In this document: positions 1 through 23,234 of the stretch, in pieces
Position numbering within the stretch: position 1 is the stretch's first letter
How the letters are laid out: each line of letters opens with the position of its first letter
NCBI GenBank assembly: GCA_026415675.1
Contig: JAOAGQ010000015.1
Location: forward strand, 1-34,926
Direction of reading: 5' to 3'
Source: Syntrophorhabdaceae bacterium
GTDB taxonomy: Bacteria; Desulfobacterota; Syntrophorhabdia; Syntrophorhabdales; Syntrophorhabdaceae
Length of the DNA: 34,926 nucleotides
The notes under the pieces: model-generated
Databases searched by the model: none
The model's input: the letters and a program-made list of their open reading frames with translations, nothing else
What the model was told of the DNA's origin: nothing
Made by a program: the position numbers and the translations under genes

Positions 1-123
1 AGGACAGCGATACACTTTAAAAAAGAGGATGACCCCGAAAGGGCGGTCGAGATCGAAAAAAGGGCAATGGCGGAGGGGCTTGATACCGGCGCCTTCGTTG
101 TTGCGTGCTGGCAGAAACCTTGA
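1..123 (+). CDS. 3' end of an unrecognised protein (partial)
   Basis: An open frame runs from the first base to TGA at 121-123 and gives the last 40 residues of a protein that begins outside the window. The tail is charged, then ends in a short hydrophobic strand (VVACWQKP). The reading frame has the AGG/GAG-rich codon use of the neighbouring genes, which is the main reason to accept it as coding. I do not recognise the family from so short a piece. A gap of 135 bp and a candidate promoter separate it from the next gene, so it probably belongs to a different transcription unit. Confidence 0.5.
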   Translation, partial: RTAIHFKKEDDPERAVEIEKRAMAEGLDTGAFVVACWQKP

Positions 124-181
124 AAAAATCCATCCTCTCCAACAATCTTTAACACTTCAAAATTAAAGGATAATATTTAGC

Positions 182-209
182 TTGAAATAAAATTCACATG
201 TGCTATAGA
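182..209 (+). promoter_or_regulatory. Candidate sigma70-type promoter for ligase gene 1
   Basis: TTGAAA (182-187) and TATAGA (204-209) are separated by 16 bp in an AT-rich gap and lie about 50 bp before the ligase start. This is a pattern match only; no operator is obvious. Confidence 0.35.
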
Positions 210-258
210 GTAATTTTATGGACCTTAATAATTGAAATTTTACACAGGGAGGGCGTAT

Positions 259-1908
259 ATGGCGATAGAGGGTTTTATAGAATACGCAAAAGAGGACAGG
301 GAAAAATATAACAGGTTGAGATGGTGGCTCGGAATGACATGGGGGGATCTGCTCGACAAGGCAACGGACCTATACCCTGACAGGATTGGCCTTGTTGATG
401 GGGTAAAGAGAATGACATACAGGGAGCTAAGGGAAAAGGTCGACAGGTTTGCGATCGGCCTTATGGAACTCGGGATAAAACCCAAAGATTGGGTTATGCT
501 ACAGTTCCCGAACTGGCATGAATACATGATAGCCTTCTTTGCCGTGCAGAAGATAGGGGCCTTGACTCTACTGCTTATTCCAAGGCATAACCAGTCTGAG
601 ATAAACCATCTATCGAGCCTCACAAAGCCCGTTGCGTGGATTCTCCCAATGAAGTACGGTAAGATAGATTACAAACCCATAATTGATGAGGTGAAAAAGG
701 AGAACCCCCAGCTTAAACATATAATCTCCGTGAGAAGTGGTGGGGATGGGGATTATCCCGCTATGGAGGAGATCATAGACAGGGTGAGTCTCAACGAGAA
801 AAACCTCTCCGCCCTTGCGGATAGAAGACCCGATCCTGATGAGGTATCCCACATCATGCCCACAGGGGGTACAACAGGTCTCCCAAAGGCAAGCGTGAGG
901 ACGCACAACTCATATATAACAAACATCGAGTACCATTCGAGGGCGTGGGAGATCACATCCCACGATACGATAATGGTTATTACCCCTGTTGGCCACAGCA
1001 TGGCCATGCACTGGGGTATAGGGGCTGCCCTTTTTAATTACGCGAAACTCGTGTTACTCGATTCAACAAAGGCAGAGGATATATGTGAGTGGATAGAGAA
1101 GGAGAGGGTGACGGCAATACCATCGGTTCCTGCATTGATCACAAGGGTTCTGGAGATGGAGGGTATTGAGAGATACGACCTGTCGAGCCTTAAAAAGATA
1201 TGCCTCGGTGGTGCCCCGAGTACCCCCGAACTCTTAAAGAACGCCTATGAAAAATTGAAGTGTATAGTGATAAACGCCTTCGGCTCATCCGAGGGGACAA
1301 ATATGTCAACGAGAATCGGGGACCCAATCGATGTAATCTTAAATACTGTAGGGAGGCCTACCTGCCCCTATGACAGGATTATCGTGATCGATGAGAACGG
1401 AAAGGAGTTGCCCCCAGGGGAAGAAGGGGAACTTGTATCAAAAGGTCCCGGGGTATTCACCGGATATTTCAAATCCCCGGAGGAGAATAGCCAGATTTTT
1501 ACAAAGGATGGTTTTTTTAAGACAGGGGACAGGGCAAAGAAGGATGCCCATGGAAACATAACCATAACGGGGAGGATAAAGGACATAATAAACAGAGGGG
1601 GAGAGAAGATAAGTGCCCTCGAGATAGAGAGAAGACTCGATGAACACCCCCAGATCCGCCAGTCCGCGGTTGTCGGTATGCCCGATAAGATTCTCGGGGA
1701 GAGGATATGCGCCTATGTGGTTACAGACCCAGGTTCTGCCTTAACATTCGAGGAGATCATAGGATTTTTGAAACAAAGGGGCGCCTCTGTGCAACAGCTT
1801 CCGGAGAAAATAGTCTTCATCGATGAACTGCCCATGACTAAAGTGGGTAAGGTCGATAAAAAGGTGCTGAGGGAGGATATAGTGCGCCGCCTTGAGGGGA
1901 ACGGATAG
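259..1908 (+). CDS. Acyl/aryl-AMP ligase (adenylate-forming, DhbE/EntE-like), probable aromatic acid-CoA ligase 1
   Basis: A member of the ANL superfamily. It should activate a carboxylic acid with ATP to an acyl-adenylate and pass it to CoA in the cytoplasm. In the 549-residue product the P-loop TGGTTGLPK is at 202-210, FGSSEG at 341-346, TGD at 422-424, and the A10 region LPMTKVGKVDKK contains catalytic Lys531. An upstream in-frame TTG at 232 is possible, but ATG 259 has a GGGAGGG ribosome site at the right distance and makes the N-terminus align exactly with the second ligase at 8135. The closest named relatives by motif are 2,3-dihydroxybenzoate-AMP ligases. No siderophore genes are nearby, and the molybdenum hydroxylase context suggests a benzoate-type substrate. 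Family certain, substrate not known. Confidence 0.88.
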   Translation: MAIEGFIEYAKEDREKYNRLRWWLGMTWGDLLDKATDLYPDRIGLVDGVKRMTYRELREKVDRFAIGLMELGIKPKDWVMLQFPNWHEYMIAFFAVQKIGALTLLLIPRHNQSEINHLSSLTKPVAWILPMKYGKIDYKPIIDEVKKENPQLKHIISVRSGGDGDYPAMEEIIDRVSLNEKNLSALADRRPDPDEVSHIMPTGGTTGLPKASVRTHNSYITNIEYHSRAWEITSHDTIMVITPVGHSMAMHWGIGAALFNYAKLVLLDSTKAEDICEWIEKERVTAIPSVPALITRVLEMEGIERYDLSSLKKICLGGAPSTPELLKNAYEKLKCIVINAFGSSEGTNMSTRIGDPIDVILNTVGRPTCPYDRIIVIDENGKELPPGEEGELVSKGPGVFTGYFKSPEENSQIFTKDGFFKTGDRAKKDAHGNITITGRIKDIINRGGEKISALEIERRLDEHPQIRQSAVVGMPDKILGERICAYVVTDPGSALTFEEIIGFLKQRGASVQQLPEKIVFIDELPMTKVGKVDKKVLREDIVRRLEGNG

Positions 1909-2024: not shown

Positions 2025-2048
2025 AATGGTTTTATATATTGAACCAAT
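2025..2048 (+). promoter_or_regulatory. Imperfect inverted repeat over the iclR start codon, candidate operator
   Basis: The arms TGGTT (2027-2031) and AACCA (2042-2046) flank a central ATATAT (2034-2039), with one more matching pair outside (2025/2048). The symmetry, its position just downstream of the promoter, and the TGG...CCA outer bases resemble palindromic operators of IclR-family proteins. It could serve as an autoregulatory site. It also overlaps coding sequence, so part of the symmetry may be chance. Confidence 0.3.
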
Positions 2049-2862
2049 TCAAGAACAAACGGATAACATTGAAGAAAAGCTCGATGACCGTTATATAGTG
2101 CCTGCCGTTGAACAGGCAGCTATAGTATTGTTTTTACTAGCCTCAAGCAATTCAACCCATCTTAGCCTCATAGACATATGTAAAAGTACAGGGATACCGA
2201 AGAGCAAGGCCTTTTCAATATTAAAGACGCTCCAGAAATATGCCCTTGTCCAGAGAAATATAGACGGGAAAGGCTATTCGTTAGGTCCTGGAATAATAAC
2301 ACTATCGAGAAGGGCCCTCGATAAGATGAGTGCCCCCCGTTTGGCGGATCCCATACTGAAAGAGCTTGCAGAAAAAACAGGGGGAACGGCAATTTTCGGT
2401 CTTATCGGTGAAAGGGGTGTTTTTGTTGCGGCAAAAAAAGAAGGGGAAAAGGATATAGGGGTTACGATAAGGATAGGGAGTTATTTTCCTCTGACGTATG
2501 GTTCCCACGGAAAGGCAATCGCAGCCTTTCTTCCGGACAACGAACTGGAAGAGATATTGAAAAAAGGAAACCTTTATTTCCACGGTTCTCCTGAGAAATT
2601 CGACAGAAAAAGGTTTGAGGAGGAGATAGAGAAGTGCAGAGAGCAGTGGTTTGCGGTAGATATGGGAGAGATGAAGCAGGGTGTAAATACCGTTGCAACC
2701 CCTGTTTTCGGGGCAGGAGGTACCCCTGTGGGGTATATCGTTGTTATATCCCTTGCCTCACAGGAGGTAGTTTCGGGATATGGACCCATCGTTGTTGAGG
2801 CAGGTAAAAGATTGTCTGAGCAACTGGGGGCTGATTTAAAAAGGATTAAGAACAGGTTTTAA
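2026..2862 (+). CDS. IclR-family transcriptional regulator
   Basis: The 278-residue protein has the two-domain IclR layout: an N-terminal winged helix-turn-helix at about 23-85 (SLIDICKSTGIPKSKAFSIL as the HTH) and a C-terminal effector-binding domain at about 100-270, with the family-typical stretch PLTYGSHGKAIAAFLP. IclR proteins often control aromatic acid catabolism and bind a small carboxylate or CoA ester. It is the first gene of a co-directional run; only 28 bp separate it from the hydroxylase small subunit, so it probably regulates its own operon. Length is normal for the family. There is no good ribosome site at proper spacing: GAGGGTGAGGG ends 16 bp upstream of the ATG. This fits either leaderless translation or an unrecognised start. 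Confidence 0.9.
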   Translation: MVLYIEPIQEQTDNIEEKLDDRYIVPAVEQAAIVLFLLASSNSTHLSLIDICKSTGIPKSKAFSILKTLQKYALVQRNIDGKGYSLGPGIITLSRRALDKMSAPRLADPILKELAEKTGGTAIFGLIGERGVFVAAKKEGEKDIGVTIRIGSYFPLTYGSHGKAIAAFLPDNELEEILKKGNLYFHGSPEKFDRKRFEEEIEKCREQWFAVDMGEMKQGVNTVATPVFGAGGTPVGYIVVISLASQEVVSGYGPIVVEAGKRLSEQLGADLKRIKNRF

Positions 2863-2890: not shown

Positions 2891-3421
2891 ATGGAAAAAA
2901 AGAGAAAAGAGGGTGTAAGGTCAGGGAAGAAGAAAAAGATAAAACTTTCTGTAAACGGAATCGGTTATGAACTGGAGATAGGGGATAAGCCCGGTGAGGT
3001 CGATTACGGCCATACACTGGCCCATACCTTAAGGGAAACCTTAAATCTAACAGGAACAAAGGTTGCCTGTGATCACGGGGCCTGTGGATGCTGTACGGTA
3101 CTTATGGACGGCAAGGCCGTTTTATCCTGCATGACCCTTACCGTAGAATGTGATGGTAAGAACATTACAACCATAGAGGGTTTAAAAGACAATAAAACTG
3201 GAGCCCTTGATCCAATCCAGCAGGCCTTTATCGAACACTCCGCCTTTCAGTGCGGATACTGCACCCCTGGTATCATTATGAGTGCCAAGGCCCTCCTCAT
3301 GGAAAACCCATCTCCATCGAAAGAGGAGATAAAAGAAGCCCTTTCCGGAAATTTCTGCCGCTGCATAAGTAATTATCAGGCGATAGATGCCGTTATTACA
3401 GCCTCAAACAGGGGGAGGTAA
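2891..3421 (+). CDS. Molybdenum hydroxylase small subunit, two [2Fe-2S] clusters
   Basis: The small iron-sulfur subunit of a xanthine dehydrogenase-family enzyme (CoxS/HcrC type), which carries electrons between the molybdenum centre and flavin. The plant-type ferredoxin cluster ligands are Cys60, Cys65, Cys68 and Cys80 (CDHGACGCC). The C-terminal helical cluster domain has Cys121, Cys124, Cys156 and Cys158 (CGYCTPG and FCRC). At 176 residues it is slightly longer than usual because of a Lys/Arg-rich N-terminal extension of about 17 residues. A GGAGG ribosome site precedes ATG 2891. The stop is directly followed by the large-subunit start, showing one operon. The extension does not resemble a Tat or Sec signal, so the complex is probably cytoplasmic. 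Confidence 0.95.
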   Translation: MEKKRKEGVRSGKKKKIKLSVNGIGYELEIGDKPGEVDYGHTLAHTLRETLNLTGTKVACDHGACGCCTVLMDGKAVLSCMTLTVECDGKNITTIEGLKDNKTGALDPIQQAFIEHSAFQCGYCTPGIIMSAKALLMENPSPSKEEIKEALSGNFCRCISNYQAIDAVITASNRGR

Positions 3422-3423
3422 TT

Positions 3424-5739
3424 ATGGGAGACGGATACAGATTTGTAGGAAAGCCGATCCCGAGGAACGATGCCGGTGACATCGTTACGGGGAAGACGAA
3501 GTTTCTGATCGATAGAAAAATGGTCGATATGCTCTACGGAAAGGTCAAGAGGAGTCCATACCCCCATGCGATTATAAAAAAGGTGGATAAAAAGAAGGCC
3601 TTTAAACTGAAAGGGGTGAAGGCTGTTCTCACATGGGAGGATGTACCTGACTGGAAGGGGGGTACCCCGAGATATACCCGTGTCCTCGACAGGAAGGTGA
3701 GGTTCGTTGGCGATGCCGTTGCCCTTGTGGCGGCAGAGACAGAAGAGATCGCCGAGGAGGCACTAGATTTAATAGATGTTGAATACGAGATACTCCCTGC
3801 GGTATTCGATATGGAAGAGGCCTTAAAACCCGATGCGCCCCAACTGTACGAAGAATTCCCGGGAAATATCGTGACCCCTGGTGTTCCCTTCTTCGGTCCG
3901 AAAAGTTTAAAGGAAGTGGTGATGGGAGATGTGGAAAAGGGGTTTGCCGAGGCGGATGTTATAACAGAAGGGACCTTTGGATACGAAGGCATACCAAACC
4001 CCATGCCCCCTGAGCCACCAGGGGCCATTGCCCTCTGGGAAGAACCGAATAAGCTTACCCTCTGGGTATCAAACCAGAGCCCCTATATGGATAAGATCCT
4101 CCTCTGGCATATTATGGGGAGAAAGGTTGAAATCCGTACATTCGGAGGACCCTGCGGTGGCAGCTATGGTTCAAAACAGATGTCATGGATTACCCAGTGT
4201 CATGCAGCCCTTTTAAGTAGGGCAACAGGTAGGCCTGTGAAGCTATACATGACAAAGGAGGAACACCTCGCCGCCTTTGTGATGAGGCCTGCATCGAGGA
4301 TGAAGGCGAGGGTGGGTATGAAAAAGGATGGAACCGTAACAGCCATAAAGGGTACATGGCTAATAGATACGGGATACTATTCCATGACAACCCAATCCCA
4401 GATTGCCGTAGGGTGTGGAGAGGTGCAGATAGCGGTCCATTGTGACAACTGGGACTTAAGACCTGTTATAGTATGTACGAATAGAAATGCCTCCGGTATA
4501 GTCAGAGGCTTTGGAGGGCAGGAGTTGAAGTGTTCCCTTCTACCTCTTATCAGCCTTGCCATGGAGAAACTCGGTCTTGACCCTTATGAGGTCTTGAAGA
4601 AGAATTTTGTCAAACCCGGTCAGGGCTATTTCTGGAGGGATGGTATCTGGTATGTCTATAGAGGAATAGACTATTCGAAGGCGATGGATGAAGGGGCGAA
4701 GGCCTTTGGATGGAAGGATAAATGGAAAGGATGGCTCATACCCACATCTATAAACGGTACCAAGAGAAGGGGTGTGGGCGTTGGGGTCCACGGGAATGCG
4801 GATATAGGAGAGGATGCCTCAGAGGCCCACGTCCGTCTTTTCAGGGATGGCACGGCCATGCTCTTTTCCTGTCTCTCCGAGCACGGTACAGGTCAGACCA
4901 CGAATTTCTTAAAGATGGTGGCAGAAACCCTAAAGCTTCCCCTAAACAGGGTTTCCCTTTCCCCTCCCGATTCTATGGTAAACCCCTACGAGTTCGGGCC
5001 TGCAGGTTCAAGGGGTACATACAGCATAGCGAGTGCTGCGATTAGGGCTGCGGAAGATGCATTAAAGAGGCTTTTTGAGCTCGGGGCACAGAAGCTCGGG
5101 GTTTCACCGTCGGATATGGATACAGAGGATGGCATGCTCTTTTCCAAACACGATCCTGAAAAGAGGATACCGTGGATTGCAGCGATGGGCCCCGATAGAA
5201 CGGTCACAGGTTACGGTCGTTTTGAGCCCGATTATACCCTTACGAACTGTATGATGACCTTTGTTGAGGTGGAGGTGGATGTTGAAACGGGAAAGGTTGA
5301 TCTTATAAGTGTGGTGAATACTTCCGATGCAGGGAAGATCGTTGACCCTAAAGGCCTTGAGGGGCAGTTAAACGGTTGTCTCGGTTCCGCCGGCATTGAT
5401 ACCGCGATCTTTGAAGAGACCGTCCTCGATAGAAGGACAGGGCATATATTAAACGCAAATATGATCGACTATAAGTGGAGGACGTTCTCAGAACTTCCGG
5501 AGATTAAAAATGTGATCCTTGAAACCCCGATGGAAAGCCACAGGTTTCATGCCGTTGGAATAGGGGAGATAGCCACATCCCCAGGACCATCGGCAGTCTT
5601 GATGGCCGTATCGAACGCCCTAGGGACATGGATACACGAATACCCTATAACTCCTGATAAGGTTTTAAAGGCCCTCGGGAAGATAAAAGGAGGGCAGAAA
5701 GAGAAAGATAGGGCGTTAGAGTTAGGAGGTGCGAGATGA
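3424..5739 (+). CDS. Molybdenum hydroxylase large (Mo-cofactor) subunit, 4-hydroxybenzoyl-CoA reductase-like
   Basis: The catalytic subunit of the CoxL/XdhB/HcrA family; 771 residues is close to 4-hydroxybenzoyl-CoA reductase alpha subunits. The N-terminal a/b hammerhead domain spans about 15-125. Molybdopterin-binding stretches follow: RTFGGPCGGSYGSKQ (238-252), RGFGGQE (361-367), SEHGTGQT (485-492) and GPAGSRGTYS (525-534). The likely catalytic Glu is Glu715 in VGIGEIATSPGPSA. The first loop departs from the usual GGGFGGK, so the substrate pocket may differ. It overlaps the next gene by four bases (ATGA), implying translational coupling. The reaction is either reductive dehydroxylation or hydroxylation of an aromatic/heterocyclic or CoA-bound substrate; the sequence does not decide which. 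Confidence 0.92.
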   Translation: MGDGYRFVGKPIPRNDAGDIVTGKTKFLIDRKMVDMLYGKVKRSPYPHAIIKKVDKKKAFKLKGVKAVLTWEDVPDWKGGTPRYTRVLDRKVRFVGDAVALVAAETEEIAEEALDLIDVEYEILPAVFDMEEALKPDAPQLYEEFPGNIVTPGVPFFGPKSLKEVVMGDVEKGFAEADVITEGTFGYEGIPNPMPPEPPGAIALWEEPNKLTLWVSNQSPYMDKILLWHIMGRKVEIRTFGGPCGGSYGSKQMSWITQCHAALLSRATGRPVKLYMTKEEHLAAFVMRPASRMKARVGMKKDGTVTAIKGTWLIDTGYYSMTTQSQIAVGCGEVQIAVHCDNWDLRPVIVCTNRNASGIVRGFGGQELKCSLLPLISLAMEKLGLDPYEVLKKNFVKPGQGYFWRDGIWYVYRGIDYSKAMDEGAKAFGWKDKWKGWLIPTSINGTKRRGVGVGVHGNADIGEDASEAHVRLFRDGTAMLFSCLSEHGTGQTTNFLKMVAETLKLPLNRVSLSPPDSMVNPYEFGPAGSRGTYSIASAAIRAAEDALKRLFELGAQKLGVSPSDMDTEDGMLFSKHDPEKRIPWIAAMGPDRTVTGYGRFEPDYTLTNCMMTFVEVEVDVETGKVDLISVVNTSDAGKIVDPKGLEGQLNGCLGSAGIDTAIFEETVLDRRTGHILNANMIDYKWRTFSELPEIKNVILETPMESHRFHAVGIGEIATSPGPSAVLMAVSNALGTWIHEYPITPDKVLKALGKIKGGQKEKDRALELGGAR

Positions 5740-8081
5740 AATCTTTTTCCCATTATAATCCAAAGTCTGTAGAGGAGGCGGTACAGGTACTATCAACATA
5801 CGATGGAAAGGCCAAACCTAACGCTGGAGGGACAGACCTCCTGGGAATTTTAAAGGAAAAATCCCTTCCCGAATATCCTGAGGCCATAGTGAACTTAAAG
5901 ACGATAGAGGGCTTAAGCTACATAAAGGAAGAGGAAGACTTTATCGCTATAGGGAGTCTGACGAAACTCTCGGAGATCGCAGGTTCTCAAATGGTCAGGG
6001 AGAAAATAAGCCTCCTTGCCGATGCGGCAAAGGAGGTGGCAACCCCCCAGATAAGAAATATGGCCACAGTAGGGGGCAACCTCGCCCAGGATGTGAGGTG
6101 CTGGTATTACAGATACCCCCATCACCTCGGAGGGAGGATAGTCTGTCTGAGAAAGGGCGGGACTTTATGCAATGCCTTAAGCGGGGATAACCGCTATCAC
6201 TCCATATTCGGGGTAGCCCCTATGGAAAAATACCCCTGTGCAGAAGGGTGTCCTGCAAAGACGGATATACCTTTCTATATGAGTTACATAAAGGAGGGTA
6301 AGATAGATGAGGCCGGGGAGATAATGATGAAATATAACCCAATCCCTGCCATTACAGGAAGGGTATGCCCTATCTTCTGCGAACCTAAATGTAACAGGAA
6401 ATCTTTTGATGAGCCTTTAGCGATCAGATGCGTAGAGAGGTATTTAGGCGACCAACTCCTCGAGAACAAGGAGAAGTTTTACAGAAAGCCCTGCAAGGAA
6501 AACGGCAGAAGTGTGGCGATAGTAGGTTCGGGTCCTGCAGGCTTAACCGCCGCCTACTATCTGAGAAAAAAGGGATATTCCGTTGTCGTTTATGAAAAGC
6601 TGAAAAACGCCGGGGGCATGCTGTATAACACCATACCATCTTACAGGCTTCCAAAGCCCGTGGTAAAGAGGCAGATAGAGGCCTTGGAGGAGATGGGTAT
6701 AAAGTTCAAGACAGGGGTTGAAGTCGGTGTGGATATAAGGCTGGAGGAGCTATCGGATAGATACAATGCGGTCTTCTTGGCTGCCGGGGCATGGAAAGAA
6801 AGGAAGATGGGGATAGAAGGGGAAGGATTTGCCATATCCGGTCTTTCCTTTTTGATGTCTAAAGAGGAACTTGCAGGGGATATAAAGGGCAAAAAAGTCG
6901 CTGTCATAGGGGGCGGGAATGTTGCCGTCGATGTGGCGAGGACCCTGCTCAGAATGGGGGCAACCCCTTCCGTCTTATACAGGAGGACAAAGGGAGAGAT
7001 GCCTGCCTTTGAAGAGGAGACGAGGAAGGCCCTGGAAGAGGGGGTGGAATTTAGTTTTCTTACACTGCCAAAAGCCATAAAAAAAGTGGATGGTAAGTTA
7101 GAACTTTCGTGTGTAAAGATGAGACTCTCAGGAAAGGATGAATCCGGTAGACCAAGACCGGTTCCTGTTAAAGGTTCTGAATTCACCATGTTGTTTGACT
7201 TTGTGATAAAGGCGACAGGGGAGGAGCCCGAATGGGAGATTATCCCCGGAGAGATCAAAAGGGACATAAGAAAAGAGCCCTCCGGGGCTTACAAACTGGA
7301 AGGGAACCTCTTTATCGGGGGAGATTTTGCAAATGGGCCATCTACGGTTATCGAGGCATCTGCATCGGGAAGGGCTGCCTTTACGCTTATCGATAAGTGG
7401 ATCAGAGGGGACAGGGAGGACTTTATAGACGAGATGGTAAAGCAAAGACCGAACACCTCTATATTTGTTGATATACCGAGGGTTTCCATCCCTGAGATAC
7501 CCCCTTCGGAGAGGATAAAGGTTCTTGAGGGAGAAGAGACCCCTGACGTAGGATGGAACGAGATTAAAAAAGAGGCGGAGAGATGTTTCAACTGTGGGTG
7601 TCTTGCGGTAAATCCCTCTGATATGGCTGTTGCCCTTATTGCCCTCGATGGAGAGATTGTGACCACAAAGAAGAGGGTGAGGGCGGAGGAGCTTTTTACA
7701 GATAGTGGTCTGGGGAAGGTCCTTCTCGATCCTGACGAGATCATAAAGGAGATAAGGATCCCGAAGCCAAAGGCCGGCTCCCATCAGAGGTTTTTAAAGT
7801 TCACATTGAGGAAGCCCGTTGATTTTGCGATAGCCAGTGTGGCCACCTCATTGGTTATAAAAGATGGTCTATGTGTTGATGCGAGGATTGTCCTTGGCTC
7901 TTTGGCACCGGTACCCTTAAGGGCAAAAAAGGCGGAAGAACTGCTGATCGGTAAACCCATAGACGAGTCTATCGCTTCTGTGGCAGCGTCTCTTGCCCTG
8001 TCCGATGCAAAGCCCTTGGGCATGAACGCCTACAAGGTAGAGATAGGAAAAACCCTTGTAAAAAGGAGCATTTTTGCATAA
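5736..8081 (+). CDS. Molybdenum hydroxylase FAD subunit (HcrB-like) with a nested GltD-like NAD(P)/FAD/Fe-S module
   Basis: A 781-residue mosaic. Residues 1-160 are the front of a CoxM/HcrB FAD subunit (AGGTDLL 30-36, ATVGGNLAQD 110-119). Residues about 163-615 are a complete GltD-like module: Fe-S N-domain (Cys168, 172, 211, 215, 219), FAD Rossmann motif VAIVGSGPAGL (260-270), NAD(P) Rossmann motif VAVIGGGNVAVD (388-399), and a second FAD contact GGDFANGPSTVIEA (528-541). Residues 617-781 resume the CoxM fold at CFNCGCLAVNPSDMA and finish with the C-terminal flavin domain. Cys122, Cys137 and Cys145 match the extra [4Fe-4S] ligands known in 4-hydroxybenzoyl-CoA reductase beta; the fourth lies beyond the insertion (probably Cys622). 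The module probably links the enzyme to NAD(P)H. The reading frame is unbroken, so this is not an assembly fusion. Confidence 0.92.
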   Translation: MKSFSHYNPKSVEEAVQVLSTYDGKAKPNAGGTDLLGILKEKSLPEYPEAIVNLKTIEGLSYIKEEEDFIAIGSLTKLSEIAGSQMVREKISLLADAAKEVATPQIRNMATVGGNLAQDVRCWYYRYPHHLGGRIVCLRKGGTLCNALSGDNRYHSIFGVAPMEKYPCAEGCPAKTDIPFYMSYIKEGKIDEAGEIMMKYNPIPAITGRVCPIFCEPKCNRKSFDEPLAIRCVERYLGDQLLENKEKFYRKPCKENGRSVAIVGSGPAGLTAAYYLRKKGYSVVVYEKLKNAGGMLYNTIPSYRLPKPVVKRQIEALEEMGIKFKTGVEVGVDIRLEELSDRYNAVFLAAGAWKERKMGIEGEGFAISGLSFLMSKEELAGDIKGKKVAVIGGGNVAVDVARTLLRMGATPSVLYRRTKGEMPAFEEETRKALEEGVEFSFLTLPKAIKKVDGKLELSCVKMRLSGKDESGRPRPVPVKGSEFTMLFDFVIKATGEEPEWEIIPGEIKRDIRKEPSGAYKLEGNLFIGGDFANGPSTVIEASASGRAAFTLIDKWIRGDREDFIDEMVKQRPNTSIFVDIPRVSIPEIPPSERIKVLEGEETPDVGWNEIKKEAERCFNCGCLAVNPSDMAVALIALDGEIVTTKKRVRAEELFTDSGLGKVLLDPDEIIKEIRIPKPKAGSHQRFLKFTLRKPVDFAIASVATSLVIKDGLCVDARIVLGSLAPVPLRAKKAEELLIGKPIDESIASVAASLALSDAKPLGMNAYKVEIGKTLVKRSIFA

Positions 8082-8134: not shown

Positions 8135-9790
8135 ATGCCGATAGATGGTTTCAACCCGTACAGGCCAGAGGATGTGGAAAAGTACACCAAACACAGATGG
8201 TGGCTCGGTATGACCTGGGGGGATCTCCTCGATAAGGGGAGCGACCTTTATCCGAGGAAAGAGATCCTTGTCGACGATACTTCAAGACTTACCTACAGGG
8301 AGCTGAGGGAGAAGGTCGATAGGTTTGCCATTGGATTGATCGAAATAGGGGTAAAACCGAAGGACTTTGTGCTCCTCCAGATGCCGAACTGGCACGAATT
8401 CGTAATAGCCTTTTATGCAATACATAAAGTTGGGGCCATAGTCGTCCTTCTCGTTGCCCGCCACGGGATTACAGAGATCGATTATCTGAGCAGCCTAACA
8501 AACCCCGTTGCATGGATAGGCCCCCCTCGATATAAAAAGACAGAGTATCTCCCCATGCTTAGCACGTTGAGGGAAAAACACGGTTCCCTAAAATACCTCA
8601 TCTCCGTGAGGGATCCAGAAGATAAAGACTTCATACCCATGGAGAGGCTCATAGAGGAGGCGAAACTTACAAACGTAACAAGGGAGGTATTAGCGGCAAG
8701 AAGACCGGATCCGTGTGAGGTCTCCATGATCCTCCCTACAGGCGGTACCACAGGCCTCCCAAAGGCGGTACCGAGGACACATAACGACTACATAGCGAGC
8801 GTCGAATACCACACAAAGGCATGGGAGATCACAAGCGAGGATACCCTTTTAACATCTGCGCCGATCGGCCATGCCCAGGCGATACACAACTGCGTCGGGG
8901 GAGCCTTTTTCAACTATGCGAAATATGTGATAACGGACTCTACAAATGCGGAAGACCTATGCAGGGTTATCGAGAGAGAGAAGGTGACGGCATTCCCCTG
9001 TGTCCCTTCCATTGCCCAGAGGATCGTGGAACTGCCGAACCTGAAAGATTTTGATCTGAGTTCTCTGAAGAAGCTGTATGCCGGAGGGGCACCGAGCACA
9101 CCGGAACTGGTGAAGAGCGTATATGAAAAACTCGGTTGCAAATACGTGAATACCCTCGGTTCTTCAGAGGGACCGAGTTGTATGACGAGGCTCGATGATG
9201 ACTTCGAGACCATAACGACAACGGTTGGAAGGCCCGATTGCCCATATGCAGAGGTCAGGATCATCGACCAGTATGGTAATGAGGTGCCTATCAACAAGGA
9301 AGGGGAATTGACTATGAAAGGCCCCAATATCTTTAACGGTTATTTTAAGTCGCCGGAGGATAATAAGAGGGTCTTCACCGCCGATGGTTTTTTCAGAACC
9401 GGGGACCTTGCAAAGAAGGATGAGAGGGGAAACATAACGATTACAGGGAGGATAAAGGAGACGATACTAAGAGGAGGGGAGACGATAAGTGCTATAGGTA
9501 TCGAGCATCTGATTAGTTCCCATCCTGCCGTTGCCGAGGTTGCGGTCATCGGTATGCCCGATAAGGCCTTAGGGGAGAGGATATGTGCGTATATAAAACT
9601 TAAACAGGGGGCGAGCTTAACATTCGATGAGCTTATCTCCTATATGAAAGGCATAGGCGCCTCTGTTCTCCAGTTGCCTGAGAGGGTTGAATTTATAGAA
9701 AACATGCCTTTGACGAACGTGGGGAAGATAGATAAGAAGATATTGAAAGAGGATATATCTAAAAAACTTGAGGGCGAAGGGAAGATATAA
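8135..9790 (+). CDS. Acyl/aryl-AMP ligase (DhbE/EntE-like), probable aromatic acid-CoA ligase 2
   Basis: A 551-residue paralogue of the ligase at 259-1908. The two align without gaps over the N-terminal half at least, sharing RWWLGMTWGDLLDK (21-34), TYRELREKVDRFAIGL (53-68) and TGGTTGLPK (202-210), and catalytic Lys531 in LTNVGKIDKK. The pocket region differs: GHAQAIHNCVGGAF here against GHSMAMHWGIGAAL in copy 1, and LGSSEGPSC against FGSSEGTNM. That suggests different substrates. AAGGAGGG just before ATG 8135 is a strong ribosome site. It follows the FAD subunit by 53 bp and precedes a hairpin terminator, so it is the last gene of the hydroxylase operon and probably supplies or recycles a CoA-thioester for that enzyme. 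Confidence 0.88.
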   Translation: MPIDGFNPYRPEDVEKYTKHRWWLGMTWGDLLDKGSDLYPRKEILVDDTSRLTYRELREKVDRFAIGLIEIGVKPKDFVLLQMPNWHEFVIAFYAIHKVGAIVVLLVARHGITEIDYLSSLTNPVAWIGPPRYKKTEYLPMLSTLREKHGSLKYLISVRDPEDKDFIPMERLIEEAKLTNVTREVLAARRPDPCEVSMILPTGGTTGLPKAVPRTHNDYIASVEYHTKAWEITSEDTLLTSAPIGHAQAIHNCVGGAFFNYAKYVITDSTNAEDLCRVIEREKVTAFPCVPSIAQRIVELPNLKDFDLSSLKKLYAGGAPSTPELVKSVYEKLGCKYVNTLGSSEGPSCMTRLDDDFETITTTVGRPDCPYAEVRIIDQYGNEVPINKEGELTMKGPNIFNGYFKSPEDNKRVFTADGFFRTGDLAKKDERGNITITGRIKETILRGGETISAIGIEHLISSHPAVAEVAVIGMPDKALGERICAYIKLKQGASLTFDELISYMKGIGASVLQLPERVEFIENMPLTNVGKIDKKILKEDISKKLEGEGKI

Positions 9791-18698: not shown

Positions 18699-18753
18699 TA
18701 ATGTTGAACAATTATGGTAAACATCAATGCTACCAAAAGTGGAGGCTATTAAA

Positions 18754-19638
18754 TTGAATACGTTAGAACTTATACGGGATGCGTATGATCTCCATGTCCA
18801 TTCGGCGCCGGATGTGCTTCCGAGAAAATTCGATGACCTTGAGATGGCGCAGAGGGTGATTGTGAAAGGTATGGGGGGCTATGCGATCAAGTCCCATTAT
18901 TTCTGTACCGCGGAGAGGGCAAAGCTGATAAAGAAGATATACCCCACCTGTGATGCGATAGGCACTATCACTTTAAACAGTGCTGTTGGGGGAATAAACC
19001 CCATGGCCGTAGAGATGGCAGGCAGGGCCGGGGCAAAAATCGTCTGGTTTCCCACGGTCGATTCGGAGCATGAACTAATGCATCTATCTAATACCCCTCA
19101 GGAGAAGCTCCCCTACTGGGCGAGGATAAAGAAGGAGATGGAGGCAGAAGGGATACAATCCCCAACGATAAACATCTTAAATGAGGGAAGGCTAAAAGAC
19201 GAAGTCTACGATACCCTTGATGTAATATCTCGATTCAATATGGTCCTCGCCACAAGCCACATTTCAAAGGCAGAGGCCTATGCCCTTGTAAAGGAGGCGA
19301 AGAATAGAAAGGTGGAGCGCATCATCATCACCCATGTCGATTTCCCCTCCACATTCTATTCCATTGAGGAGCAGAAGGAGTTGCTCAAATATGGGGCCTA
19401 TATGGAACACTGTTACACAACACCGGCAACTGGAAAGGTTTTGTGGGAGGTGGCACTGGAGCAGATCAAGGCGATAGGGCCTGCCCATGTAATTATAGGC
19501 ACGGATCTCGGTCAGGCAACGGGCATATTCCCCGATGAAGGGCTCCTCGAATATAGTAACAGGCTTCTGAATTACGGTTTTACAGAAGAGGATGTAAGGA
19601 CCATGCTCGTTGAAAACCCTTCATCCCTTATCAGATAG
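18754..19638 (+). CDS. DUF6282 amidohydrolase-like metal-dependent hydrolase
   Basis: A 294-residue protein matching the DUF6282 group. It carries a ligand series like that of the amidohydrolase superfamily: His14 and His16 (DLHVHSAPD), Lys46, His169, His194 (IITHVDFP) and Asp251 (IIGTDLGQ). The nearby GTITLNSAVGGINP and MEHCYTT segments are also typical. An in-frame ATG lies at 18727 with no ribosome site; TTG 18754 is preceded by GGAGG at 8 bp and gives the usual short N-terminus, so it is preferred. The group has no firmly established reaction. Because it heads an operon with an oxalomesaconate hydratase and an aldolase, a lactonase or hydrolase feeding that route (for example on a pyrone dicarboxylate) is my inference. 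Confidence 0.75.
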   Translation: MNTLELIRDAYDLHVHSAPDVLPRKFDDLEMAQRVIVKGMGGYAIKSHYFCTAERAKLIKKIYPTCDAIGTITLNSAVGGINPMAVEMAGRAGAKIVWFPTVDSEHELMHLSNTPQEKLPYWARIKKEMEAEGIQSPTINILNEGRLKDEVYDTLDVISRFNMVLATSHISKAEAYALVKEAKNRKVERIIITHVDFPSTFYSIEEQKELLKYGAYMEHCYTTPATGKVLWEVALEQIKAIGPAHVIIGTDLGQATGIFPDEGLLEYSNRLLNYGFTEEDVRTMLVENPSSLIR

Positions 19639-19648
19639 AGGGGTTAAT

Positions 19649-20356
19649 ATGGAGAGATACATAGTTAAAAACATTCCAAGGTGTGATGAGGAGATATGCG
19701 AGGAGTTTGCCCGTCTTGGTGTGGCTACTGTCTTTGAGGCCCAGGGGCAGATAGGTCTCATGGAGGAGAGGATAAAACCTATCCAGCAGGGGGTATCAGT
19801 ATGCGGCCCTGCTGTTACCGTTATCTGTCCTGCAGGGGATAATCTCATGATCCATGCGGCGGTAGAATGCTGTCAAAAAGGGGATATCCTCGTTGTCACT
19901 ACGATTGGAGAAGCGAATAAACACGGTATGGTAGGGGAGTTGCTTGTGAGTAGCTTTATGAAAAGGGGTGTTAGGGCCCTTATCATGGATGGGGGTGTCC
20001 GGGATACAATGGAGATTAAAAGGCTCAATTTCCCTGTCTGGACGACGGCTGTTATCTGCACCGGGACGACGAAGAATAAGGCAGGATGGGTAAATGCCCC
20101 TGCCGTGTGTGCCGGGGTGATCGTGGAACCGGGGGATCTCATCGTTGCTGATGATGATGGCGTGGTGGTGGTAAAGAGAGGAGAGATTAAGGAGGTCCTC
20201 GAGAAGTCGTTGGCGAGGAAGAAAAAGGAGGAGGGTACCGCAAAAAAGATTGAGGAAGGCCAGCTCGGTGTAGATTTTTACGGTTTCAGGGATGTATTGG
20301 CAAAACTGGGCGTGAAATACTATGAAACTTTAGAGGATGTGTCGAAAAAGGACTGA
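19649..20356 (+). CDS. RraA-fold class II pyruvate aldolase, probable 4-carboxy-4-hydroxy-2-oxoadipate aldolase
   Basis: A 235-residue RraA-family protein. RraA-type aldolases cleave 4-carboxy-4-hydroxy-2-oxoadipate to pyruvate and oxaloacetate (EC 4.1.3.17) and can decarboxylate oxaloacetate. The aldolase signature is an acidic residue, 20 residues, then Arg-Asp: Glu97 and Arg118-Asp119 (MDGGVRDTME) fit, with Glu in place of the more usual Asp. The end DDDGVVVVKRGE is a family hallmark. ATG 19649, 10 bp after the previous stop and after an AGAGGGG site, is preferred over upstream in-frame alternatives. Its pairing with a GalB-like hydratase two genes later strongly favours aldolase over ribonuclease E inhibitor function. 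Confidence 0.85.
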   Translation: MERYIVKNIPRCDEEICEEFARLGVATVFEAQGQIGLMEERIKPIQQGVSVCGPAVTVICPAGDNLMIHAAVECCQKGDILVVTTIGEANKHGMVGELLVSSFMKRGVRALIMDGGVRDTMEIKRLNFPVWTTAVICTGTTKNKAGWVNAPAVCAGVIVEPGDLIVADDDGVVVVKRGEIKEVLEKSLARKKKEEGTAKKIEEGQLGVDFYGFRDVLAKLGVKYYETLEDVSKKD

Positions 20357-20364
20357 AGAAAGAG

Positions 20365-21006
20365 ATGAGGGATCAGACAGGAAGGGTTTATCAGGAATTA
20401 AAACAGAGGATACTCGATGGTTTCTTCAAGCCTTCGGAGAGTTTGGTTGAGGTCTCCCTTGCCTCGGAATTAAAGGTAAGTCGGAACACCATAAGAAAGG
20501 CACTGCTTAAACTGGAGAGCGAAAACCTGATCGTGATAGAGGAAAACGGGAGGTCAAGGGTCAGGTATTTTACCGCAGAAGAGGTGATGGAATATCTTGA
20601 AGTCAGGGAGTTGCTCGAGGGATTTGTTATAAAGAAGGCAATAGCCCATCTTAAGGATAGCGATATCGATGAGATGCGCGCTATCTTCAGGGATATGGAG
20701 GAGTGCATAGAGAAGGGGGATCTGATCCTTTACTCTCAGAACAACTGGCGTTTCCACGATATCATCTACAGGGCCTGTCCCAATCGACCGGCGGTGGAGT
20801 TGATAACGATGATAAAAAACCAGCTAAAGAGGTACAACATCAAAACCATACTCGTAAAAGGCAGGGGAGAGGATTCCCTTGAAGAACATAGGCGAATCCT
20901 CTCGGCAATAGAGAAAAAGGACGGGAACATGGCGGAGTTGGAGCTTATGCGCCATATCGCCAATTTGAGGGATGTTTTACAGAAACATTTCGAACTGCTC
21001 CAGTAG
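20365..21006 (+). CDS. GntR-family transcriptional regulator (FadR/FCD subfamily)
   Basis: A 213-residue regulator with an N-terminal winged helix (about 5-68; SLASELKVSRNTIRKALLKL is the HTH) and a C-terminal helical FCD domain (about 75-205). Likely metal/ligand residues His131, His175 and His197 are present; the usual acidic first ligand position is Asn127. FCD proteins commonly sense carboxylates and repress the operon they sit in. Starts 9 bp after the aldolase gene, inside the operon. It is the obvious candidate regulator of the adjacent hydratase, aldolase and Tct importer genes. Confidence 0.9.
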   Translation: MRDQTGRVYQELKQRILDGFFKPSESLVEVSLASELKVSRNTIRKALLKLESENLIVIEENGRSRVRYFTAEEVMEYLEVRELLEGFVIKKAIAHLKDSDIDEMRAIFRDMEECIEKGDLILYSQNNWRFHDIIYRACPNRPAVELITMIKNQLKRYNIKTILVKGRGEDSLEEHRRILSAIEKKDGNMAELELMRHIANLRDVLQKHFELLQ

Positions 21007-21021
21007 GAAAAGGGAGGTAAG

Positions 21022-21750
21022 ATGGCAGAGGATAAAAATTATGCAGGACTCGTGATCAGTGCCCATTCAGGAGACTTTGTGTGGAGGGCAGGAGGGGCTA
21101 TTGCACTCTACGCCTCTCGGGGATGGAAGATGAAGATCATCTGCCTTTCCTACGGGGAGAGGGGAGAGTCCGCAAAGTTATGGAAAGAAGGGGGTGTAAC
21201 AATCGAGGAGGTAAAGGCAAAAAGGCATGAGGAGGCCCTTAAGGCCGCTTCAATCTTGGGTGGGGAGGTAGAGTTTTTCGACTGTGGAGACTATCCCATC
21301 GATTTTACAGAGCAACATATGGAAAGGCTCGTTGACATTTACAGGTCTTTGAAACCCCGTTTTATACTGACCCATTCCCTTGAAGACCCTTACAACTTTG
21401 ATCATCCCCTCGCATCAAAGATAGCGCAGAAGGCAAGGATCATAGCCCAGGCCCACGGACATAAGCCCGCAACCGGTGTAATTGGGGCGCCCCCGGTATT
21501 CCTCTTTGAGCCCCACCAGCCGGAACAGTGCAACTGGAAACCTAATCTCTTGCTCGACATCACCCCTGTCTGGGATAAAAAGAGGAAGGCCTTTGAGGTG
21601 CTGGAGGCACAGGAGTATCTCTGGGAATATTATACGAGGGTCGCATTGAACAGGGGTGTCCAGGCCGCAAGGAATTCGGAGTATAAGGATATAAAATACG
21701 CAGAGGCATACCAGCGTATCTTCCCAGAGGTTACCCACGAATTTAAATAG
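21022..21750 (+). CDS. galB: 4-oxalomesaconate hydratase (GalB-like, PIG-L/LmbE fold)
   Basis: A 242-residue PIG-L-fold protein. The usual deacetylase motif AHPDDE is replaced by SAHSGDFVWRAGG: Zn ligands His15 and Asp18 remain, but Gly17 replaces the Asp that acts as catalytic base in deacetylases. The third ligand is likely His128 in DPYNFDHPLA. Segments LSYGERGESAKLW (42-54), DPYNFDHPLA (122-131), FEPHQPEQCNW (162-172) and LWEYYTRVALNRGVQA (200-215) closely resemble GalB of Pseudomonas putida as I remember it. GalB hydrates 4-oxalomesaconate to 4-carboxy-4-hydroxy-2-oxoadipate (EC 4.2.1.83), the substrate of the RraA-type aldolase encoded upstream. GGGAGG precedes the ATG. Confidence 0.82.
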   Translation: MAEDKNYAGLVISAHSGDFVWRAGGAIALYASRGWKMKIICLSYGERGESAKLWKEGGVTIEEVKAKRHEEALKAASILGGEVEFFDCGDYPIDFTEQHMERLVDIYRSLKPRFILTHSLEDPYNFDHPLASKIAQKARIIAQAHGHKPATGVIGAPPVFLFEPHQPEQCNWKPNLLLDITPVWDKKRKAFEVLEAQEYLWEYYTRVALNRGVQAARNSEYKDIKYAEAYQRIFPEVTHEFK

Positions 21751-21773
21751 AAAAGAAAAAGGAGGAATTTACC

Positions 21774-22748
21774 GTGAGGAGAAGAACATTTTTAATCACC
21801 TTTTCAATCGTTACCATTCTGTTATGTTTCACAACATACGCTGCAGAACAGAACTACCCGACAAAACCTATAAGGGTAATCGTCGGTTTTGGGCCCGGAG
21901 GTGTCGCAGATCTTACTTTAAGGATCGTTGCCCAGAAACTGTCGGCCCAACTTGGACAGCAGATTCTTGTTGAAAATAGACCGAGTGCCGGGGGCATTGT
22001 GGCCGCAGATGCCGTAGCAAAGGCACAACCGGATGGTTATACCCTTCTACTTATGTCCAACGGGAATGCGGTGAGTGCATCTTTATTCAAATCCCTTCCA
22101 TACGATACGGTTAATGACTTTGCCCCTGTATCAACCCTCGGTTTTTTTGACATAGCGATGTTTGCAAAAGCAGATTCAAAATTCCAGACCGTAAAAGATG
22201 TGATCTCCTATGCGAAGGCGAACCCGGGGAAACTGAATATCGGGACGATAAACGTGGGGAGCACACAGAATCTCTCGGCAGAACTGTTTAAGGGGATGGC
22301 CGGGATAGAGGCAACGATAGTACCTTACAAAAATAGCCCCGATGTCCTCGTTGCGTTGAGGGGAAACGATGTCCAGATCGCCTTCGACATGCTTGCCCCT
22401 ATCATATCTCAGTACAAAAGCGGTGTTGTCCGCATCATTGCCATAACTTCGAACCGCCGTTTTTCACCCCTCCCTGACATACCAACGATAGCAGAGAGCG
22501 GTGTTCCCGGTTACCAGGCGTCCTCATGGAATGCGATAGCCGCCCCTGCGAAGACACCAAAAGCGATTATAGACAGGCTAAACAAAGAGATAAATATGGC
22601 CCTTTCCACGCAGGAGGTTAAGACTAAACTTCTCGAAATAGGTGTGACTGCCCAGGGAGGAACGCCGGAGGATCTAAAAAATCTTTTGATTTCCGATATA
22701 AAGAAATGGAGAGGGGTAATAGAGAGGGCAAACATCCCGAAACAGTAA
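21774..22748 (+). CDS. tctC: Tripartite tricarboxylate transporter substrate-binding protein (TctC/Bug family)
   Basis: A secreted 324-residue binding protein. Residues 1-24 form a signal peptide (twin Arg-Arg-Arg start, hydrophobic core, cleavage near TYAAE). The family-defining strand YPTKPIRVIVGFGPGGVADL follows at once, and IAAPAKTPKAIIDRL near the end is also standard. GTG 21774 has GGAGG at 8 bp and is the only sensible start for a signal peptide. Bug proteins bind di- and tricarboxylates, amides or aromatic acids. Lying between the hydratase gene and the two membrane subunits, it should deliver the operon's substrate to the importer. Confidence 0.93.
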   Translation: MRRRTFLITFSIVTILLCFTTYAAEQNYPTKPIRVIVGFGPGGVADLTLRIVAQKLSAQLGQQILVENRPSAGGIVAADAVAKAQPDGYTLLLMSNGNAVSASLFKSLPYDTVNDFAPVSTLGFFDIAMFAKADSKFQTVKDVISYAKANPGKLNIGTINVGSTQNLSAELFKGMAGIEATIVPYKNSPDVLVALRGNDVQIAFDMLAPIISQYKSGVVRIIAITSNRRFSPLPDIPTIAESGVPGYQASSWNAIAAPAKTPKAIIDRLNKEINMALSTQEVKTKLLEIGVTAQGGTPEDLKNLLISDIKKWRGVIERANIPKQ

Positions 22749-22763
22749 CAGGGCAGGGTGGAT

Positions 22764-23231
22764 ATGAAGAATTTAAGAGGAACATTAAGCTCAAAAGACC
22801 TGTGGTCAGGCCTTATCTTTTTTTTCTTCGGGGTGGTCTTTGTCTATTTTGGGAGAAATTACCAGATGGGTACCGCCATGCGTATGGGGCCTGCCTACTT
22901 CCCCACTCTCCTTGGGGCTCTCCTTACGTTTGTTGGGATCATCCTTATGGCAAAGACGTTTATAAAACCAGGGGATAAAGTGGAAAGTATGAGGTATAGC
23001 AAGGTGATATACATAACCTTGGCCAATCTCTTCTTTGCCTTTATGTTGAGGAGGATAGGGGTTGTCTTATCCATCGTACTCCTCGTCCTGATCGGTGCCT
23101 ATGCCAGTCAAAAATTCAAATGGTCATACGCCATGCCTCTCGCCTTAGGGCTTGCTATCGGCTCCGCAATCATATTTGTCCTTCTTCTCCATCTTCCTCT
23201 GCCCATATTGGGGCAGTGGTTCGGAGGTTGA
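22764..23231 (+). CDS. tctB: Tripartite tricarboxylate transporter small membrane subunit (TctB)
   Basis: A 155-residue membrane protein with hydrophobic segments at about 13-30, 44-63, 80-95, 99-114 and 124-144. The MGTAMRMGPAYFPTLLG stretch after the first helix is typical of TctB, the poorly conserved small subunit. ATG 22764 is chosen over GTG 22758 because AGGG lies at workable spacing. It sits directly between tctC and tctA, so the assignment is secure from both sequence and position. Confidence 0.9.
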   Translation: MKNLRGTLSSKDLWSGLIFFFFGVVFVYFGRNYQMGTAMRMGPAYFPTLLGALLTFVGIILMAKTFIKPGDKVESMRYSKVIYITLANLFFAFMLRRIGVVLSIVLLVLIGAYASQKFKWSYAMPLALGLAIGSAIIFVLLLHLPLPILGQWFGG

Positions 23232-23234
23232 TCG

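Follow-up and report, generated by a model that had tools for sequence, protein, structure and literature searches.

The window, a stretch of 34,926 nucleotides from a Syntrophorhabdaceae bacterium, carries the genes of a xanthine oxidase (XO)-family molybdenum enzyme, preceded by a regulator and bordered on both sides by genes for acyl-CoA ligases. The following genes were recognized:

232..1908, + strand: acyl-CoA ligase of the aryl-acid adenylate type (AMP-binding; top NCBIfam match DHB_AMP_lig, under its cut-off)
2026..2862, + strand: IclR-family regulator, also found beside the operon at several loci of both the fused and the plain kind
2891..3421, + strand: CoxS small subunit with two [2Fe-2S] domains (Pfam Fer2_2 and Fer2)
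3424..5739, + strand: CoxL catalytic subunit, molybdopterin-binding (Ald_Xan_dh_C, MoCoBD_1, MoCoBD_2)
5736..8081, + strand: CoxM::GltD nested fusion of 781 aa (open reading frame, Pfam, structure match and 24-protein alignment)
8135..9790, + strand: acyl-CoA ligase, directly downstream of the fusion

The start of the CoxM::GltD gene overlaps the CoxL stop (ATGA), and the two partners of an XO-family FAD subunit, CoxS and CoxL, are encoded immediately upstream. The gene order CoxS-CoxL-CoxM::GltD is kept across the fused loci, and both partners adjoin the fused CoxM in nearly all of those with enough flanking sequence (CoxS identity 45-71%). In another locus, L168, a ligase 74% identical to the one at 8135-9790 lies immediately 3' of a plain CoxM. 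Further along the window, at 18727-24737, genes for a DUF6282 protein, an RraA-like aldolase, a GntR/FCD regulator, a PIG-L deacetylase and a tripartite tricarboxylate transporter (TctC, TctB, TctA) appear to form a carboxylic acid catabolic locus of their own.

An oxidoreductase module nested in the FAD subunit

The reading frame at 5736-8081 on the forward strand comprises 781 open codons from ATG to stop, and its Pfam domains occur in the order FAD_binding_5 (residues 3-118), Fer4_20 (165-244), Pyr_redox_2 (259-545) and CO_deh_flav_C (688-778). The product is an XO-family CoxM with one domain nested inside another, and its parts are arranged as follows:

5736..6212, + strand: CoxM N-terminal part, residues 1-159, with the FAD domain and C122, C137 and C145 of the [4Fe-4S] loop (FAD_binding_5; 1rm6_B alignment via an uninterrupted relative)
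6213..7598, + strand: inserted GltD/NfnL-type NAD(P)H oxidoreductase module, residues 160-621 (Fer4_20, Pyr_redox_2 and model match; missing from orthologous plain CoxM)
6237..6437, + strand: ligands of the insert's Fe-S domain, C168, C172, C211, C215, C219 and E234 (invariant in 24 of 24)
6510..6875, + strand: FAD-binding Rossmann domain of the insert, residues 259-380 (GSGPAG glycines invariant)
6885..7235, + strand: NAD(P)-binding Rossmann domain of the insert, residues 384-500, with NADPH-like YRRT at 415-418
7584..7601, + strand: module end CFNCGC with C617, C620 and C622 (invariant in 24 of 24)
7599..8078, + strand: CoxM C-terminal part, residues 622-781, with the remaining FAD domain and CO_deh_flav_C

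In an AlphaFold2 model built from 30 sequences (mean pLDDT 80.7, pTM 0.64), residues 147-621 match the NfnA and StnC folds (9bov_A, Z 44.9; 8oh5_C, Z 43.3). Both ends of the model, compared as one discontinuous domain (1..781), match CoxM of CO dehydrogenase (1n60_C, Z 31.7, 271 of 286 residues) and the beta subunit of 4-hydroxybenzoyl-CoA reductase (1rm6_B, Z 31.4, 282 of 323 residues), and the CoxM fold does resume past the insert, as a previous sequence-only reading had stated. The model is poor precisely at the cluster loop (117-164) and at the re-entry point (621-627). The boundaries given by that reading are borne out as well: HSIFG occupies residues 155-159, LAVNPSDMA starts at 623, and the insert of about 462 residues extends from 160 to 621. 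The outer protein combines the FAD_binding_5 and CO_deh_flav_C fold with the AGGT and GGN FAD motifs of an XO-family FAD subunit, and the insert has the composition of a GltD/NfnL-type module, an Fe-S N-domain followed by Rossmann domains for FAD and for NAD(P).

Conservation was assessed in an alignment of 24 full-length fused proteins, the one of the window included, with pairwise identities of 41-92%. The two Rossmann motifs first read from the window sequence proved to be invariant at their glycines (G264, G266, G269 and G392-394). The Fe-S N-domain described at the same time is present, but it is unlike that of canonical GltD, since the N-terminal CxxC that provides distal-cluster ligands in NfnL and GltD is absent from the insert. 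In this respect the insert belongs with a StnC/NfnA-like subgroup, which carries a C-terminal RCxxCGC in place of the N-terminal CxxC. Accordingly, the RCxNCGC motif at 617-622 probably takes the place of the missing motif and, by analogy with the StnC/NfnA relatives, C617 and C620 would be the residues that stand in for CxxC.

The place of insertion can be defined with the help of uninterrupted homologues. When plain CoxM is aligned to 1rm6_B, its loop is found to carry the cysteines that bind the additional [4Fe-4S] cluster in 4-hydroxybenzoyl-CoA reductase; plain CoxM of orthologous loci reads, for example, HAIMGGRRCFAVCPSD at this place, and the loop is CLRKGSGPCLAVKGDNRYHAIMGGRRCFAVCPSDTAVAL in the plain locus L096 as against CLRKGGTLCNALSGDNRYHSIFG-[462 aa]-CLAVNPSDMAVAL in the fused protein of the window. 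The module is inserted between the third (C145) and the fourth cysteine of this HcrB-type loop, and C622, the last residue of the module motif RCFNCGC, occupies the place of the fourth cluster cysteine of CoxM, so that the four-cysteine loop of 4-hydroxybenzoyl-CoA reductase (C122, C137, C145, C622) is recovered through the alignment.

All 24 proteins share, without exception, eleven cysteines (122, 137, 145, 168, 172, 211, 215, 219, 617, 620 and 622) and E234; the two flavin motifs and the glycines for NAD(P) are likewise invariant, and cysteines 232 and 253 vary. The eleven cysteines and E234, twelve candidate ligands in all, are exactly enough for three [4Fe-4S] clusters, and the invariance of the FAD and Fe-S ligand motifs upholds the earlier view that at least two flavin sites and several clusters reside on one polypeptide. 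E234 aligns with E126, which is known to bind a cluster in Pyrococcus furiosus NfnL (PMC9503767), and with K170, a ligand of cluster C7 in StnC (PMC10482914). Most stand-alone relatives of the module have a lysine at this position.

Distribution and history of the fusion

A scan of 84,980 species genomes yielded eight relatives spanning the query from end to end (L021-L028), and further fused homologues came to light when relatives, the window's phylum and an acidobacterial phylum were surveyed; in the last of these, 3 of 297 genomes contain the fused form. The sources of the 24 aligned proteins are the family and order of the window, another family of its phylum, Desulfobacula, and the phylum of an Acidobacteria MAG, and the fused architecture therefore occurs in two phyla. 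An assembly artefact, which the sequence-only reading had named as the finding that would overturn it, is ruled out by the 23 further full-length homologues from many separate assemblies.

Several of these loci have peculiarities of their own. The fused CoxM at L028 (7899-10279), from a Desulfobacula MAG, is frameshifted, either by an assembly error or as a pseudogene. In two other Desulfobacula loci (L026, 567-3077; L027, 2085-4691) the fused CoxM adjoins CoxL, and as the CoxL of L026 is only 30% identical to that of the window, the fused subunit serves different catalytic partners. One contig (L122, 831-8452; G043:C265) carries two fused CoxM in tandem operons, the first with a YRR and the second with a CLE motif in the nucleotide-binding domain, and the same genome has a third fused copy, L118.

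When orthologous CoxL genes (55-78% identity) were traced to their CoxM neighbour, about one third of these neighbours were fused and about two thirds plain, the latter with some 325 aa. The plain loci L094, L096 and L098 keep CoxS (63-71%) and CoxL (58-79%), one of them also the IclR regulator, and no GltD homologue is present in their flanks (up to 8 kb). Given such plain orthologues of the whole operon, an ancestral fusion is unlikely. Both kinds are found together in some genomes (G007, G017). At L150/L167 (8085-9167; G345:C48) a CoxM that groups with the fused ones has a short stretch, HSIFGAAGFADSPSDFGRVRKGCFAVGPSD, in place of the 462-residue module, and no GltD homologue was detected within the 19 kb covered; the module has probably been lost there. 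At L169 (about 7105-7663; G018:C87), in a genome with a fused operon, a plain CoxM beside a 71% identical CoxL seems to have suffered a frameshift or decay close to its N-terminus.

In the Fe-S/FAD part of the module, the 22 fused sequences compared with 74 stand-alone relatives group as a single clade (SH-aLRT 99; 98 in a thinned set), as expected from a single origin of the insert. For the nucleotide domain, in contrast, a single clade is rejected (AU p = 0.0012), and in the subgroup with a CLE motif and a long loop the identity to the window is about 31% at residues 361-500 as against 52-62% in the adjoining FAD domain. The nucleotide-binding domain was exchanged within the insert, which suggests selection on nucleotide use. 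The operon as a whole does not follow one clean history together with the fusion, which is rejected by the trees of both subunits: the fused label changes at least five times on well-supported branches of the CoxL tree and three times in the CoxM tree, from which the loop was left out. The CoxL of the window is placed among mostly plain operons and its CoxM inside the fused clade, so that CoxM and its module have a history partly separate from that of CoxS-CoxL. A second group of five fused CoxM (L024, L131, L133, L026 and L027) sits among plain ones. Hence the fused CoxM part may have arisen once or twice, even though the insert forms a single clade in its Fe-S/FAD part.

Putative electron path and its direction

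Based on the conserved ligands and on the place of the insert, we consider it likely that the fusion constitutes a linear wire between NAD(P)H and molybdenum, in which a GltD/NfnL-type module inserted in the [4Fe-4S] loop of CoxM would replace soluble ferredoxin as the electron partner. From the same data we infer the cluster assignment and the path. NAD(P)(H) and the FAD of the module would exchange hydride, and this FAD would pass electrons one at a time to a proximal [4Fe-4S] cluster (three Cys and Glu234) and from there to a distal [4Fe-4S] cluster; they would then reach the loop cluster of CoxM (C122, C137, C145, C622), the FAD of CoxM, the two [2Fe-2S] clusters of CoxS and finally the Mo centre of CoxL. 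In principle the wire would be reversible. It is plausible because of two precedents: StnC, the subunit of StnABC in which electrons run from NADPH and FAD through [4Fe-4S] clusters (PMC10482914), and Ucdh, a dehydroxylase of the XO family, which accepts NADH (PMC12771579). The direct NAD(P)H connection put forward in the sequence-only reading likewise gains support from the FAD, NAD(P) and Fe-S motifs, which are invariant across the 24 proteins.

Eleven of the fused proteins, that of the window among them, have a YRR motif in the nucleotide-binding domain and the remainder of the 24 a CLE-type motif; nearly all stand-alone relatives carry YRR. As a rule, basic residues here contact the 2'-phosphate of NADPH and acidic residues the ribose of NADH. 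The difference thus points to a putative change between the two nucleotides: the enzyme of the window is predicted to use NADPH, and the CLE homologues probably use NADH.

With regard to the substrate, the top PDB sequence match of CoxL is the alpha subunit of 4-hydroxybenzoyl-CoA reductase (1rm6_A). Nevertheless, this identity, which had been implied for the enzyme at the outset, is to be rejected: CoxL reaches 344-347 bits against TIGR03194, where the cut-off is 994.55, and nine further CoxL paralogues encoded in the genome score higher. CoxM::GltD obtains 126.9 bits in two stretches against TIGR03195 (the beta subunit; cut-off 404.55), a score depressed by the insert. This genome (G000; 2.56 Mb) contains at least 11 XO-family CoxL genes (on contigs C10, C26, C31, C39, C48, C49, C59, C61, C62, C63 and C65), and none of the nine that outscore the CoxL of the window reaches the cut-off either. 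It also carries a gene over the cut-off of TIGR03200, 6-oxocyclohex-1-ene-1-carbonyl-CoA hydrolase, a marker of the benzoyl-CoA route, and this marker together with the adjoining ligases of the aryl-acid type makes an aryl-CoA a likely substrate.

We lean towards a flow of electrons to Mo, with reduction and dehydroxylation of an aryl-CoA, as the more likely of the two directions. The same wire may also run outwards, CoxL hydroxylating a (hetero)aromatic acyl-CoA or similar compound and the module reducing NADP+ or NAD+ where xanthine dehydrogenase would use its NAD+ site. This we regard as the less likely but still a serious alternative. It would be in keeping with a CoxL that is only distantly related to HcrA and has a conserved GIGE motif aligning with the GMGE/GIGE region of hydroxylases, and with the cysteine loops, similar to the present one, in the FAD subunits of aldehyde oxidases. 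The CoA ligases that flank the operon could be read in the same way, as such ligases flank known acyl-CoA-hydroxylating systems, for instance that of furoyl-CoA dehydrogenase. However, the benzoyl-CoA route marker renders dehydroxylation of an aryl-CoA plausible, and GltD-type modules are best known as oxidisers of NADPH.

Confurcation or bifurcation, which the sequence-only reading had thought the arrangement could support, appears very unlikely. The FAD of the module would in that case divide electrons between the branch to Mo and another partner such as ferredoxin or NAD+. Subunits of bifurcating complexes provide the nearest solved folds, and E234 corresponds to the site-differentiated Glu of bifurcating NfnL (PMC9503767), where StnC and most stand-alone relatives have Lys (PMC10482914); a Glu ligand on the cluster next to the FAD is, however, not known to be diagnostic of bifurcation. 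The twelve invariant ligands account for three clusters and leave no spare branch. Among the annotated neighbours of the operon, CoxS and CoxL are the constant partners, and no NfnS-like, thioredoxin-like [2Fe-2S] or ferredoxin gene, nor any other module for a second donor or acceptor, was seen conserved. Moreover, electrons are bifurcated in StnABC at the FMN of StnB, and the FAD in StnC, the GltD-type subunit and a close solved relative of the insert tested by mutation, does not bifurcate (PMC10482914). We therefore give little credence to a single polypeptide that would bifurcate or confurcate among NAD(P)H, a Mo (de)hydroxylase and a third carrier with the module FAD as the splitting site. 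We know of no bifurcating molybdenum hydroxylase so far, and this one would be the first.

A purely structural or regulatory role of the module, such as that of a nucleotide sensor or an interaction domain, is hardly credible at all, for even though uninterrupted orthologues evidently persist without it and the L150 lineage has apparently lost it, its FAD and NAD(P) motifs and all candidate ligands are invariant at 41-92% pairwise identity and its nucleotide domain has been swapped for another type, not lost.

Known systems and meaning of the fusion

The same GltD-type module is found in NfnL and in the large subunits of NfnABC and StnABC (NfnA, 9n5u and 9bov; StnC, 8oh5), with Z scores of 42-45 over about 445 residues. 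The insert shares with NfnA and StnC the N-domain with PCxxxCP / GRVCPxxCExxC, the FAD and NADPH Rossmann domains and the C-terminal RCxxCGC, and in StnC, likewise, the module lies between other domains, a [2Fe-2S] domain and further NuoG-like domains. In NfnA and StnC, though, it feeds NuoG/NuoF-like transhydrogenase subunits, whereas in the window it sits in the FAD subunit of a molybdenum hydroxylase and has the Glu of NfnL where StnC has Lys170. HcrABC (1rm6) resembles the present enzyme in its three-subunit XO-family layout and in the four-cysteine [4Fe-4S] loop of its FAD subunit, but has no insert and receives electrons from ferredoxin (PMC12771579). Ucdh, the urolithin C dehydroxylase of Enterocloster, is of the XO family and accepts NADH; no mention of a nested GltD module was met in the passages of its description that were consulted (PMC12771579). 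In Rhodopseudomonas palustris the Nfn-type protein AadN is needed for electron supply in anaerobic aromatic degradation, but it is a separate fused Nfn protein proposed to feed benzoyl-CoA reductase and not a domain within the acceptor (PMC9973337).

The third-best NCBIfam match of the insert is TIGR03315 (YgfK, putative selenate reductase subunit). YgfK adjoins XdhD/YgfM, a genetic link between a GltD-type module and molybdenum hydroxylases, but it is a polypeptide of its own and not nested in the FAD subunit. The genome of the window encodes other large multidomain proteins with GltD modules (L007, C70:15995-17407, frame of 1485 aa; L005, C30:13902-15320, frame of 1148 aa), which suggests that the module is in wide use as a plug-in electron entry. 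All parts of the fusion are known already; for their nesting at the cluster loop, no earlier description was found in the open-access literature covered.

The electron source or sink of the molybdenum hydroxylases and dehydroxylases of strict anaerobes is often unknown. Here, an electron partner has been built in at the very cluster through which ferredoxin is believed to reduce 4-hydroxybenzoyl-CoA reductase, and the fusion may serve as a template for constructing NAD(P)H-driven molybdenum hydroxylases. The plain, fused and apparently reverted orthologues, along with the NADPH-type and probable NADH-type versions, amount to a natural experiment on cofactor choice, in which the fused enzymes would probably exchange electrons directly with NADPH or NADH and dispense with a separate carrier protein.
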